DNA from: Saprospiraceae bacterium
GTDB lineage: Bacteria; Bacteroidota; Bacteroidia; Chitinophagales; Saprospiraceae
Reading direction: 5' to 3'
Length of the DNA stretch: 64,000 bases
Assembly: GCA_019187365.1 (NCBI GenBank)
Contig: JABARE010000016.1
Coordinates: forward strand, 186,001-250,000
This document shows, piece after piece, positions 30,807-47,585 of the stretch (the first letter of the stretch is position 1; each line of letters opens with the position of its first letter). Made by a program: the position numbers and the translations under genes. The notes beneath the pieces are model-generated. The model had not been told where the DNA came from. It searched no databases and saw only the letters and a program-made list of their open reading frames with translations.

Positions 30807-30908
30807 TTCTCTGCAAATTTATTGAATTTTACCGCTACAGCGACTTACATCCCAGGGGGATGCCCGGGTTCGGTCAATTTAACGGGGTTCCTCGAATAAC
30901 CCAGTTTT

Positions 30909-31072
30909 GATGCCAGAATGAAAAGGGCTGCCTCTCTTCACTCCCTGTTGATGCCAGAATGAAAAGGGATGCCTCTTTTCACTCCCTGTTGATGCCAGAA
31001 GGAAAAGGGCTGCCTCCCTTCACTCCCTGTTGATGCCAGAAGGAAAAGGGCTGCCTCCCTTCACTCCCTGTT
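30909..31072. repeat. Four tandem 41-bp units (left arms)
   Basis: Units start at 30909, 30950, 30991 and 31032, each GATGCCAGAA followed by an arm of the form GGGCTGCCTCYCTTCACTCC. A fifth GATGCCAGAA at 31073 opens the first core. Each arm is the reverse complement of the 22-base segment that follows each of cores 1 to 4. Confidence 0.9.
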
Positions 31073-31090
31073 GATGCCAGAAGGAATTTA

Positions 31091-31803
31091 GCAAAACAAG
31101 ACGAGGCGCGGTGAAGGAAGCTATGTGGAGCAATACCTGACTGAACCGCAACGAAGGATTGTGAAGCTAAATTCATTTCGCGCGCAAGCCAATGCGGGCT
31201 GGCTGGCGCAAGAGGGAGTGAAGAGAGGCAGCCCCCAAGCAAAACAAGACGAGGCGCGGTGAAGGAAGCTATGTGAGCAATACCTGACTGAACCGCAACG
31301 AAGGATTGTGAAGCTAAATTCATTTCGCGCGCAAGCCAATGCGGGCTGGCTGGCGCAAGAGGGAGTGAAGAGAGGCAGCCCCCAAGCAAAACAAGACGAG
31401 GCGCGGTGAAGGAAGCTATGTGGAGCAATAACTGACTGAACCGCAACGAAGGATTGTGAAGCTAAATTCATTTCGCGCGCAAGCCAATGCGGGCTGGCTG
31501 GCGCAAGAGGGAGTGAAGAGAGGCAGCCCCCAAGCAAAACAAGACGAGGCGTGGTGAAGGAAGCTATGTGGAGCAATACCTGACTGAACCGCAACGAAGT
31601 ATTGTGAAGCTAAATTCATTTCGCGCATTAGCCTGTGCGGGCTGGCTGGCGCAAGAGGGAGTGAAGAGAGGCAGCCCCCAAGCAAAACAAGACGAGGCGC
31701 GGTGAAGGAAGCTATGTGGAGCAATAACTGACTGAACCGCAACGAAGTATTGTGAAGCTAAATTCATTTCGCGCATTAGCCTGTGCGGGCTGGCTGGCGC
31801 AAT
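31091..31803. repeat. Five tandem 148-bp core units
   Basis: Starts at about 31091, 31239, 31386, 31534 and 31682 (period 148, one unit 147). Units differ at a few bases (ACCTGACTG or AACTGACTG; CGAAGGATT or CGAAGTATT), so they have diverged slightly since amplification. The period is not a multiple of three, which argues against coding. Confidence 0.92.
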
Positions 31804-31944
31804 AGTGGGTTATTAGAGGTGCCCAAAAGCTTTAGAAGGTATCTTTCCATTAGGCAACATCCCGAGACACAAAGTGGAGCATTCAGGCAACTGTTCGTTC
31901 GAATAAATTAAAGGTCGGTTCATAATTGCTAATTTCGCAAAGGA

Positions 31945-43366: not shown

Positions 43367-43375
43367 TAGCTTTGC
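43367..43375 (+). promoter_or_regulatory. -7 box of the topA promoter
   Basis: TAGCTTTGC matches TANNTTTG(C). The upstream TTG (near 43337) is farther away than usual, so only the -7 element is well supported. The box lies inside the longest open frame and shows that topA begins at the ATG 43405, not at the TTG 43372. Confidence 0.5.
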
Positions 43376-43404
43376 CCGAATTTTTGTCAAAACCACAGCA
43401 CCGG

Positions 43405-45939
43405 ATGGCAAGTAAGCTGCTGATCGTAGAATCACCCGCGAAAGCAAAGACGATTGAAAAATATCTTGGAAAGGATTTTAAAGTAAAGTCGAGTTACGGG
43501 CACATCCGCGACCTGGATAAAGGGTCTAAAGGAGTCGATATTAAAAATGCTTTTCAGCCAAATTATGTCGTTTCACCCGAGAAAACTAAAGTTGTCAAAG
43601 AACTTAAGGAGTGGGCGGCAAAGGTTGAGGAAGTGTGGCTCGCAACAGACGAAGACCGCGAGGGTGAAGCCATAAGCTGGCATCTTTGTGAAGTCCTTGG
43701 GCTGGATCCGAAGTTGATCAAGCGCATCGTTTTTCACGAGATAACCAAGCCGGCAATCCAAAAGGCTGTTCAGTCTCCGCGCAATGTAGATCTTAATCTC
43801 GTCAACGCACAGCAGGCAAGGCGCGTGCTCGATCGTCTCGTCGGTTTTGAGTTAAGCGAAATCCTTTGGCGTAAGATCCGGAACAAGCTGTCTGCCGGCA
43901 GAGTACAATCCGTTGCAGTTAAACTGGTTGTAGATCGCGAAAGGGAAATTAAGGAATTCAACCAGACGGATTATTTCCGTGTTGATGCGGTCTTTACAAC
44001 CGGGAACGGAAAGCAACAATCCGTTCGAGCGGTCCTAAATCATAAATTTAGTAAAGACAGGGAAGCAGAAGATTTTCTGGAACAGTGCAAAGGATCTATA
44101 TTTCGCGTGGAGAAGGTTGAGGTCAAGCCTGTAAAGCGATACCCTTCGCCGCCGTTCACTACCTCAACATTGCAGCAGGAGGCCAGCAGAAAACTTGGAT
44201 TCGGGGTCAACCGAACGATGTCTGCAGCACAGAAGCTCTACGAAGCGGGATGGATCACCTACATGCGTACAGATTCTACCAATCTGAGCGACACGGCCAT
44301 AGCCGCAATGGCCAAGGAAATTGAAAACCTTTTTGGTCAAAACTATGTAAACACTCGTCAATACAAAACAAAGAGTGCTTCTGCGCAGGAAGCACACGAA
44401 GCCATCAGGCCAACTTACATGGACGTGCGTTCTGCCGGAGATGATACCGATCAGCAAAAGTTGTACGAACTGATCTGGAAGCGTGCGATGGCGTCACAGA
44501 TGGCTCCAGCCTCTTTAGAGAAGACCCAGGTGGACATTTCGATATCAAAAGTTGGAGACAAGCTGTTTGTTGCCGTGGGAGAGGTGCTGCTGTTTGATGG
44601 GTTTTTAAAGCTCTACATAGAATCCTCCGATGACGAGGACGAGGAGCAGGCCAATATTCTTCCACCCTTGAAGGTGGCTGATATCCTGTCATACCAAAAG
44701 ATCACGGCTGTTCAGAAATACAATCGTCCACCGGCAAGGTACACGGAGGCCAGCCTGGTTAAAAAACTTGAAGAACTGGGGATCGGCAGACCGTCGACGT
44801 ATGCACCGACGATCAGCAAGATCATGGAAGCTAACAGAGGTTATGTTGTGAAGGAATCAAGACCTGGAAGTGAAAGGAAGTTTCAGGTTATTTCCCTTGC
44901 TTCGGGTGTTCTCCAGCGTTCGACCGATAGTGAAATGGCTGGTGCTGCTAAGAACCACCTCTTCCCGACCGACATCGGGATCATCGTCTGCGATTACCTC
45001 GCCGAGCACTTTCCAGACGTGATCAATTATGGATTTACGGCAGAAATTGAAAAAGAGTTTGATGAAATAGCAGAGGGCAAGCTGGATTGGGTTAAAATGA
45101 TCGACGAGTTTTATTGGCCATTTCACAAGGATGTCGATGTGGTCATGGAACAGGGCGAAAGAGCAAAGGGCAGGAGAGATTTGGGACTTGATCCACATTC
45201 AGGTCGCAAGGTCATTGTCCAGCTCACGCGATTTGGTCCGGTGGTTCAGCTGGGTGACCGCGACGAAATGGCCGAGAATGAAAAACCGCTCTTTGCCAAT
45301 TTGCGACCCGGACAAAGCATGGAGACGATCAGCTTTGAGGAGGCACTTGACCTTTTTAAATTGCCCAGGACCCTGGGATCCATTGATGGAAATGAAGTAA
45401 TTGTAGGTGCGGGACGCTTTGGGCCGTACGTCAAATTTAAGGAGCAGTTTATTTCGATACCCAAGCACCATGATCCCCTGGAAATTTCCCTGGATGAAGC
45501 AAGTGAGCTCATCCGACAAAAGGAATTCCAGGATGCTCCGATTGGGTTTTACAAAGATCTCCCCGTCACAAAAGGCAAAGGACGTTTTGGTCCATTTGTA
45601 AAATGGAACGGCTTGTTCGTCAACATTCCCCGCAAATTTGATCCCGAACGACTGACCGTTGAACAAGCCATCCCACTGATCCAAGGCAAGGAAGATAAAG
45701 AGGCCAACCGCTACATACACCGCTTTGATGAGCTGAATCTCACCGTTGAAAACGGACGTTGGGGGCCATTCATCAAGTTTGGCAAGAAGATCATTAACAT
45801 CCCCAAGCAAAATGGTCAGAAAATAAGCCCGGAGGCAGTAGCCCAGATGACCATTGAAGAATTTAAGGCCATCGTCGAAGAACAGTTACCCGGAGCATTT
45901 GAGAAGAAAAAACCGGCTGTAAAGAAAGTGCGTAAATAG
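43405..45939 (+). CDS. topA: DNA topoisomerase I (type IA)
   Basis: 844 residues from ATG 43405. The Toprim domain carries ESPAKAKTIEKYLG near the start and DEDREGEAISWHL with the acidic triad near 82-88. The active tyrosine is Y286 in ITYMRTDST. The C-terminus lacks the four-Cys zinc fingers of E. coli TopA. Instead it has repeated GRFGPYVK/GRWGPFIKFG modules (at about 605, 680, 730 and 790), as is usual in Bacteroidota. The enzyme relaxes negative supercoils. The composite repeat begins about 15 bases after its stop. Confidence 0.96.
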   Translation: MASKLLIVESPAKAKTIEKYLGKDFKVKSSYGHIRDLDKGSKGVDIKNAFQPNYVVSPEKTKVVKELKEWAAKVEEVWLATDEDREGEAISWHLCEVLGLDPKLIKRIVFHEITKPAIQKAVQSPRNVDLNLVNAQQARRVLDRLVGFELSEILWRKIRNKLSAGRVQSVAVKLVVDREREIKEFNQTDYFRVDAVFTTGNGKQQSVRAVLNHKFSKDREAEDFLEQCKGSIFRVEKVEVKPVKRYPSPPFTTSTLQQEASRKLGFGVNRTMSAAQKLYEAGWITYMRTDSTNLSDTAIAAMAKEIENLFGQNYVNTRQYKTKSASAQEAHEAIRPTYMDVRSAGDDTDQQKLYELIWKRAMASQMAPASLEKTQVDISISKVGDKLFVAVGEVLLFDGFLKLYIESSDDEDEEQANILPPLKVADILSYQKITAVQKYNRPPARYTEASLVKKLEELGIGRPSTYAPTISKIMEANRGYVVKESRPGSERKFQVISLASGVLQRSTDSEMAGAAKNHLFPTDIGIIVCDYLAEHFPDVINYGFTAEIEKEFDEIAEGKLDWVKMIDEFYWPFHKDVDVVMEQGERAKGRRDLGLDPHSGRKVIVQLTRFGPVVQLGDRDEMAENEKPLFANLRPGQSMETISFEEALDLFKLPRTLGSIDGNEVIVGAGRFGPYVKFKEQFISIPKHHDPLEISLDEASELIRQKEFQDAPIGFYKDLPVTKGKGRFGPFVKWNGLFVNIPRKFDPERLTVEQAIPLIQGKEDKEANRYIHRFDELNLTVENGRWGPFIKFGKKIINIPKQNGQKISPEAVAQMTIEEFKAIVEEQLPGAFEKKKPAVKKVRK

Positions 45940-45954
45940 TCCTGAATTCCTCAT

Positions 45955-46910
45955 GGACACCTCGAATAACCTAGTTTTGATGCCAGAATGAAGTTAGGGA
46001 AACAAGACGAGGCGCGGTGAAGGAAGCTAAGTGGAGCAATACCTGACTGAACCGCAACGAAGTATTGTGAAGCTAAATTCATTTCGCGCGCAAGCCAATG
46101 CGGTCTGGCTGGATCGATAGGGAGCATTTAGAAGTGTCCTAAATTCAGTTGGCTATTGCCAGAGTAACAGTTGTATGTGCTATGTTGGAATATTTTTTCT
46201 TCATTTTTTGTTTGCTCCATGTAAATTGGGTTGTTACTTTCTTTTGCCGCAAAAGAAAGTAACCAAAGAAAGCTCGTCAGTATGCTAGGCGCTCACGCCG
46301 ACCTCATTCATCGCCTTTAGCTATCCCTCTTGGTAATAAGACAACTCACTGCCTGGTTTTTATACAACGGCGTGAACGTGTCCTGCGGTCTGGCGCTTCG
46401 CTGAGTTTCCAGGCCTGCGGACACTGCGCTTGCATACTGACTGTCCCAATGCAGTATCGTATGGATTTTGCCATCAGGTTTCATAGTATATTTTAGGGCC
46501 CATCTAAATACTCCCTGTTGATGCCAGAATGAAGGGGGCTGCCTATCTTCACTCCCTGTTGATGCTAGAATGAAAAGGGCTGCCTCCCTTCACTCCCTGT
46601 TGATGCCAGAAGGAATTTAGCAAAACAAGACGAGGCGCGGTGAAGGAAGCTATGTGGAGCAATAACTGACTGAACCGCAACGAAGTATTGTGAAGCTAAA
46701 TTCATTTCGCGCGCAAGCAAATGCGGTCTGGCTGGCGCAAGAGGGAGTGAAGAGAGGCAGCCCAAAAGGGAAACAAGACGAGGCGCGGTGAAGGAAGCTA
46801 TGTGGAGCAATACCTGACTGAACCGCAACGAAGTATTGTGAAGCTAAATTCATTGAGTGGGTGAGCCAGTGCGGTCTGGCTGGCGCAAGAGTGGGATATT
46901 CGTGGTGCCC
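45955..46910. repeat. Composite inverted-repeat element, copy 2
   Basis: This 0.96-kb gene-free region has outer arms at 45955-45983 (GGACACCTCGAATAACC...) and 46882-46910 (...GTGGGATATTCGTGGTGCCC) that are imperfect reverse complements. Inside are core A (~45983-46114), an arm at 46115-46143, 350 bases of other sequence, the complementary arm at 46492-46520, 41-bp units starting 46520 and 46561, core B (from ~46602), a right arm near 46741-46762 and core C to ~46880. It belongs to the same family as 30888-31824. The 350-base interior includes a palindrome (46233-46263) but no gene. Confidence 0.85.
46233..46263. repeat. Perfect 14-bp palindrome inside composite 2
   Basis: GTTACTTTCTTTTG at 46233-46246 pairs fully with CAAAAGAAAGTAAC at 46250-46263 around a 3-base loop. 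A similar GTTACTTTCTTT...AAAGAAAGTAAC motif is, from memory, common in repeated non-coding sequences of Bacteroidota. It is not followed by a T-run and is more likely part of the repeat than a terminator. Confidence 0.8.
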
Positions 46911-46937
46911 TTTAGTCAGTGATCCTGCTATTAAAGA

Positions 46938-47585
46938 TCATTCGGGCAGGCCAAGAAGTTGCTTTGCCCGGTCTGACTGAAGTTGAAAGAGCTCCGTAAT
47001 CATGATGCCTAAATCGATAAATGTATTCAGTTCGCTCACAGCTATCCGCTTGCTATGGGGGTAGAGCAAAAAGTAATAATTCAGCCCTTCCATACTCATT
47101 TCTTTTTGCCCACTCAAAAGATCAAGAATTTCTTTGGAAAAATAATGCCGTATCACTTTTTCAAAAGGCCCCTCCAACCGATACCGGCTGGAATAATTTT
47201 CAAAATCTGCAAAGTCAATATCTTTCATGCCAATGAGTTCCATCAATCGGTCTAAAAACGTCTCTGGTTTTTGCCTGAACTCCGGTAGAGATAACGCAAA
47301 TGAGTCGGCATAGAAGACGGATTGCCTTAAAGTGCGTCTCGAATTTCCACGCTGAATCGTATAGTTGAAGTCGAAAACACAATATCGGGTGCCGTCCCTC
47401 CTGAATGAAAGCACGTTATAGAATTTGTGCCTTCTTCCTTTCCTGAATAGACGAAATTCGCCAAGCTGGTCAAATTGTGCCCTTTCAGCAGACTGCTGAT
47501 AGTCCATGTTTCGTTCAAATGCCAATTGTTCAATGGCCTGTTCGCGATTGCGGCCGGCACCGGTGATCCATTCAGCGAGGCTCAT
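46938..47585 (-). CDS. Hypothetical cytoplasmic protein downstream of lpxB
   Basis: 215 residues, no signal peptide and no membrane helix. The middle contains a beta-hairpin-like stretch with many basic and aromatic residues (FRLFRKGRRHKFYNVLSFRRDGTRYCVFDFNYTI). The end is helical (HYFSKEILDLLSGQKEMSMEGLNYYFLLYPHSKRI). I recognise no family. It follows lpxB by 3 bases and is therefore probably translated from the same message. Confidence 0.8.
   Translation of the reverse strand: MSLAEWITGAGRNREQAIEQLAFERNMDYQQSAERAQFDQLGEFRLFRKGRRHKFYNVLSFRRDGTRYCVFDFNYTIQRGNSRRTLRQSVFYADSFALSLPEFRQKPETFLDRLMELIGMKDIDFADFENYSSRYRLEGPFEKVIRHYFSKEILDLLSGQKEMSMEGLNYYFLLYPHSKRIAVSELNTFIDLGIMITELFQLQSDRAKQLLGLPE

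Follow-up and report, generated by a model that had tools for sequence, protein, structure and literature searches.

The intergenic region considered here carries a dense nest of inverted repeats, and raises the question of whether one mobile element was opened by another, or whether the nest was assembled in a different way. The window is a stretch of 64,000 nucleotides (G000:C2:186001-250000) from a Saprospiraceae draft genome (G000) of 3.66 Mb in 73 contigs. The composite occupies positions 45955-46910 of the forward strand; these limits, given in an earlier note made from the sequence, proved exact to the base. It sits between two convergent genes: an upstream neighbour at 43372-45939 (+), presumably topA from its protein, and an unnamed downstream ORF at 46938-47585 (-). 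The only coding content of the composite is one chance-like frame of 87 aa. The stretch had been wrongly read as one opened element. It consists of two complete elements, E1 and E2, with an unrelated repeat trapped between them, and E2 is enlarged by a nested element.

Comparison of the arms within the window confirmed the pairing that had been described. The outer arms are type-A terminal inverted repeats at 45955-45985 (+) and 46880-46910 (+, followed by TTTA); they match at 20 of 31 inverted-repeat positions, and none of 61,821 background window positions equals that value. The pair of a third arm type is also real (19/24 matching; background in the window 0/61,828), and the inner pair matches at 24 of 26 positions (background in the window 0/61,826). 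The palindrome reported between the third-type arms lies at 46233-46263 (GTTACTTTCTTTTGC/GCAAAAGAAAGTAAC, no strand assigned), and its 15-nt arms are 100% complementary.

E1 (45955-46139, +) is a complete base-length element by its sequence, with a type-A left end and a type-B right end. Its length is exactly 185 bp, matching uninterrupted copies elsewhere. Core 1 has approximate limits of 46002-46105 (+), and the type-B right end (46120-46139, +) is the left member of the third-type pair. The spacer of 356 bp (46140-46495, +) starts with TAAA and finishes with TTTA; it is a piece of a separate dispersed repeat, X, and contains the perfect palindrome. E2 (46496-46910, +) is a complete element of 415 bp, with a type-B left end (46496-46515, +; inner limit approximate), which is the right member of the third-type pair, and a type-A right end. 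Two tandem arrays were detected in E2 by TRF: a 41-bp left array with two type-C left arms (46510-46615, +), and a 148-bp right array in which one type-C right arm separates two cores (46623-46891, +). One inner left arm therefore has no partner, as had been noticed, since two inner left arms stand against one inner right arm. The length of E2 equals 185 + 41 + 41 + 148 bp, which is also the length of the two-left, one-right forms L041 and L054. The same window holds a sister element at 30884-31824 (+), with four left and four right inner arms and without the spacer.

E1 and E2 belong to a foldback mini-transposon (MITE) family, of which this genome carries 50 copies or more and the congener G005 many more. 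Searches of the own genome with the element and with its ends gave 80 stretches, and G005 added 28. A motif scan of these 108 stretches identified 101 element segments, and both outer ends could be seen in 53 of these. With a length of 185 bp, the base element has a folded core and GGGYACC...GGTRCCC-type terminal inverted repeats, with ends of about 20 bp. The simplest complete copies have this length (L105, L106, L109, L115, L119, L122, and L124; L178 in G005), and represent the outer element in uninterrupted form. In the grammar of the family, an outer left end is followed by m type-C left arms (41-bp units) and a core, then by n repeats of a type-C right arm plus a core (148-bp units), and lastly by an outer right end. 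There was no free-standing type-C element among the 101 segments. The location was intergenic in all 46 copies examined, none of which lies within an ORF of at least 100 aa. By every feature tested, the element is a MITE: it is short, has no transposase gene, has terminal inverted repeats and a target duplication of constant length, and has empty sites. The copies L116 (C13:117 kb) and L128 (C45) are one element with identical flanks on two contigs; the draft genome therefore holds a duplicated stretch. L107 (1021-1180) and L127 are rearranged, with the core or an arm inverted and one end being the reverse complement of the other side.

The proposal that the family is mobile is borne out by its 4-bp target duplications and empty sites. 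An exact 4-bp duplication flanks 27 of the 53 complete copies, whereas 2000 rounds of shuffling the right flanks gave 6.4 on average and never more than 14. Three of these rows are not independent, as L128 repeats L116, and L159 and L178 share flanks with L121 and L115; without them the count is 25/50. Duplications of 3 bp were found in four complete copies and of 5 bp in none, and 26 of the 53 have no exact 4-bp duplication. A filled and empty pair was also identified: a copy in G005 lies between two TTTA sequences, and G000 reads straight through the same site without the element. The window composite is absent from G005, where the alignable parts of topA and of the next gene are separated by 28 bp, against 989 bp here. 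The sister element (152 bp in G005 vs 1095 bp) and the composite on contig C1 (L031; 51 bp vs 1195 bp) are absent there as well.

The composites that contain X differ in their flanks. The window composite (L034) is flanked by TCAT on the left and TTTA on the right, with no target duplication; none was found at L037, L063, and L154, nor at L043 and L107. L031 has TTTA on both sides. This duplication suggests that a composite of the E1-X-E2 type may move as a unit, and L031 is read here as one that probably did so. L031 and the window copy share 634 identical bases (46031-46664), which start in core 1 and stop in core 2, and they are divergent outside this block. Because the borders of the shared block lie inside the cores, it appears more likely that the window copy acquired the block by recombination between cores. 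Alternatively, the X block of the window might be an assembly join, in which reads of one real composite were placed at two loci. The identical block in C1 and C2, whose borders fall within repeated cores, would agree with such a join, as would the many contigs that end in these elements and the runs of N. However, X copies with other sequences and other neighbours occur at L037, L060, L063, and L067, so that junctions between an element and X exist at more than one place, and an assembly join is considered rather unlikely.

The order in which the elements and X came together can be examined in the other copies of X. The spacer has 54 matches in the genome, although many of them are short or reflect the palindrome pairing with its own opposite strand. 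Both checks proposed in the earlier note thus succeed: the interior of about 350 bases occurs elsewhere in the same genome, and so do outer elements without it. On the left side of the X copies L129 and L132, there is no element or type-B arm directly beside X. The text of L129 (...GGTTAAATTCAGTTGGC) agrees with the junction of E1 and the spacer (CC followed by TAAATTCAGTTGGC), as though an element had landed on TAAA. Because this X copy, with no element directly on that side, matches the junction, insertion of the element into X or next to it is more likely than the reverse. The opposite order, in which X with its type-B arms is itself a mobile segment of about 350 bp whose insertion split a single element, is quite improbable. 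The type-B arms do pair and bracket X, and X is present elsewhere while outer elements exist without it; however, removal of X leaves two complete elements of 185 and 415 bp and not one, type-B arms are missing directly beside X in L129 and L132, and the arms that do adjoin X in L031, L034, L037, L060, and L067 belong to the neighbouring elements. The earlier claim that one family member was opened by another holds for the type-C copy nested in E2; the interior of about 350 bases opened none, and lies between two complete members.

X also forms arrays of its own (L037, L043, and L107), such as 5.2 copies of a 121-bp unit at L107 (3827-4456), and these arrays bear a second hairpin (CCGCTGGCTTCGACTCCGCTCAGCCAGCGG). 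The X palindrome (GTTACTTTC) also has matches in another species of the genus (G008); a literature search for it as a letter string returned nothing. An 822-aa ORF at L107 was considered as possible cargo and dropped, as it lies past the right end of the composite.

The nested element of E2 (46577-46763, +) is bounded by type-C arms at 46577-46602 and 46738-46763, and is 187 bp long. The same unit is 187 bp in L034, L039, L042, and L162, and 186 bp in L048. In E2, it has AAAA on the left and on the right, which is a target duplication inside a family member. In most other copies, CCAA or CCGA is found to the right of the unit; L053 retains AAAA before GCAAAAC. This pattern of right flanks would fit one old insertion followed by change, rather than many insertions. 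The unfilled target of the nested unit (GTGAAAAGCAAAAC) was seen only once, in a rearranged element. The sum of the two repeat units (41 + 148 = 189 bp) was also tried as 185 + 4 bp; this is a coincidence, as the nested unit is 187 bp.

The inner arms were counted in 42 copies, namely the 53 complete copies minus the X composites (L031, L034, L037, L063, and L154), the copies with a deleted core (L116 and L128), and the rearranged copies (L117, L120, L123, and L168). Among the 31 complete non-composite copies with any inner arm, left and right numbers are equal in only 6; 20 are left-richer and 5 are right-richer. Balance of the arms is thus not a rule of the family. Units of the same locus resemble each other more closely than in any of 1000 shuffles, both for the 41-bp units (0.964 vs 0.926) and for the 148-bp units (0.950 vs 0.920). 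These data bear on a further explanation, in which the inner arms come from repeated nested insertion of the same element, giving a strict nest with left equal to right. Equal arms do occur in some copies (4/4 in L033; also L039, L042, and L052), and the left and right counts are modestly correlated where both are present (rho 0.54, 16 loci). However, strict nesting by repeated insertion was rejected on the unequal arm counts and the local homogeneity of the units, and is very improbable.

The fold is very stable (z = -7.8 as single-stranded DNA). In 25 aligned cores, 7 of 28 base pairs have changed on both sides, and none of 500 shuffles reached as many, with kinship among the cores uncontrolled; hairpin-templated repair could be an alternative source of such changes. 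A covariance model of the core had matches in 11 of 295 genomes of the class, the own genome included. One element in a second genus (L193 in G032) is 184 bp long; its ends are of the same kind, TTTA flanks it left and right, and it folds in nearly the same way. Of 21 loci that were checked (20 from the covariance search plus L193), 14 have paired ends, and 8 of these have an exact 4-bp duplication; L219 and L230 are copies that share one context, and 7 of the 21 have no recognisable pair of ends. The hairpin architecture, the matching ends, and the 4-bp duplications thus recur in Bacteroidia families whose sequences have strongly diverged. The elements L219, L220, L222, L225, and L234, from other Bacteroidia families, are about 180-220 bp long, with GGGTACCTCGAAGAACC-type ends and 4-bp duplications. 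These are mostly from several species of one other genus. The base element had no Rfam match at E <= 1, and the whole window at the gathering score gave only a tRNA. No description of a structured MITE family across several Bacteroidia families was found in the literature searched. It is tentatively possible that selection acts on the core in its folded form as a nucleic acid, and that a class-wide MITE family transposes through, or is regulated by, a folded strand, which the complementary inner arms may extend. A non-mobile host RNA or transcription-terminator element retained for its structure is scarcely credible: the stable fold, the seven both-side pair changes, the consistently intergenic location, and the excess of convergent over divergent ORFs (13 vs 6, a crude count) would agree with it, whereas the 4-bp duplications, the empty sites, the absence of an Rfam match, and a terminator scan of 45900-47000 that gave no terminator-like site argue against it.

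A candidate for the enzyme that moves the element was sought through its ends. The end pattern, with one mismatch allowed, was matched in 4 of 100 genomes of the family, the own genome included. In another Saprospiraceae genus (G017), a matching end (GGGCACCTCTAAAAACCTC) adjoins a 354-aa transposase, assigned to the IS5 family by NF033581 (271 bits) and also to PF01609; the far end of this IS5-family element is GAGGTGCCC. The sole G017 copy of the insertion sequence with both ends has TTTA and AAAA as flanks, with no duplication. In the own genome, contig C41 ends in an IS5-type transposase remnant that covers residues 287-344 at 38% identity and lies next to GGGAACCTCGAACAACC. No intact homologue was found in the draft assemblies of G000 and G005, whose contigs often end in these repeats, and no suitable pair of type-A or type-B ends around an intact transposase was found in them among the matches listed. 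The IS5 group makes 4-bp target duplications. Two Y1_Tnp genes are also present (G000:C3:63046-63276 and C19:51664-51843), the type of gene to which short palindromes are linked in REP/RAYT systems, and they may or may not be related to the X palindrome. A Y1 transposase is a less likely mover, as the 4-bp duplication and the IS5-type ends point elsewhere.

Taken together, the element is very probably a non-autonomous foldback MITE of the IS5 type, shaped by self-insertion of a type-C member, by drift of its arrays, and by the trapping of X between two copies. The element would be excised at its terminal repeats by an IS5-family transposase supplied in trans, and its insertion would produce the observed 4-bp duplication. 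Its parent would be an intact element with GGGYACCTCGAATAACC ends. At an ancestral stage, a member with type-A or type-B ends may have received a full-length member with type-C ends, which left AAAA on both sides, as judged from the sequence. This insertion would have created a left direct repeat of 41 bp and a right one of 148 bp, and the two arrays could then lengthen or shorten independently via local slippage or recombination. The common 226-bp form would arise where recombination between the two cores deletes the inner right arm. Separately, a copy may have inserted at the edge of X, so that X ended up between two complete copies. The resulting E1-X-E2 unit has a valid left and a valid right end, and could move as a composite.

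Four ordinary steps would thus account for an apparently baroque nested repeat: transposition, a single self-insertion, expansion in tandem, and repeat trapping. The analysis defines the ends exactly, together with target duplications and empty sites. It also indicates a structured MITE family across several Bacteroidia families, with a conserved fold that is testable. The element is an ordinary kind of bacterial mobile repeat, unusually elaborate; its unusual parts are the two complementary arrays and the trapped repeat.

Among known systems, the IS5-type MITEs of Porphyromonas gingivalis appear to be the closest. MITEPgRS/464 and BrickBuilt are likewise Bacteroidota MITEs with IS5-type ends and variable internal tandem repeats (PMC4596501). 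The tandem unit is 41 nt in MITEPgRS and 23 nt in BrickBuilt, and BrickBuilt is described as always intergenic (PMC4596501). Their terminal repeats begin with GAGAC, whereas those of the present element are of the GGGYACC type; BrickBuilt duplications are given as inconsistent in length, compared with a constant 4 bp here; and the present element differs in having two arrays with complementary arms, derived from a nested copy (PMC4596501). In architecture, the nearest relative may be BOX of Streptococcus pneumoniae, which is also modular, with fixed ends, a variable tandem module, and mutual insertion; the comparison concerns architecture alone (PMC3049150). By the same account, boxA and boxC enclose a single variable module in BOX, whereas the present case has two, of 41 and 148 bp, and a spacer that separates two elements. 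MITEAba12 (PMC6382973) and MITECca01 of Cardinium (PMC9769881) are likewise short and gene-less, with ends common to a transposase-bearing element. MITEAba12 makes 9-bp duplications (PMC6382973) against 4 bp in the present element; the parent of MITECca01 belongs to the IS982 family (PMC9769881), whereas the ends here are of the IS5 type and an intact parent-like element is found in another genus. A precedent for the composite may be the MITE-flanked structures around class 1 integrons of Acinetobacter (PMC10969869, PMC6382973), in which a passenger enclosed by two MITEs resembles a composite transposon, as in the present case. The passenger here, unlike that of the Acinetobacter integrons (PMC10969869, PMC6382973), is a non-coding repeat.
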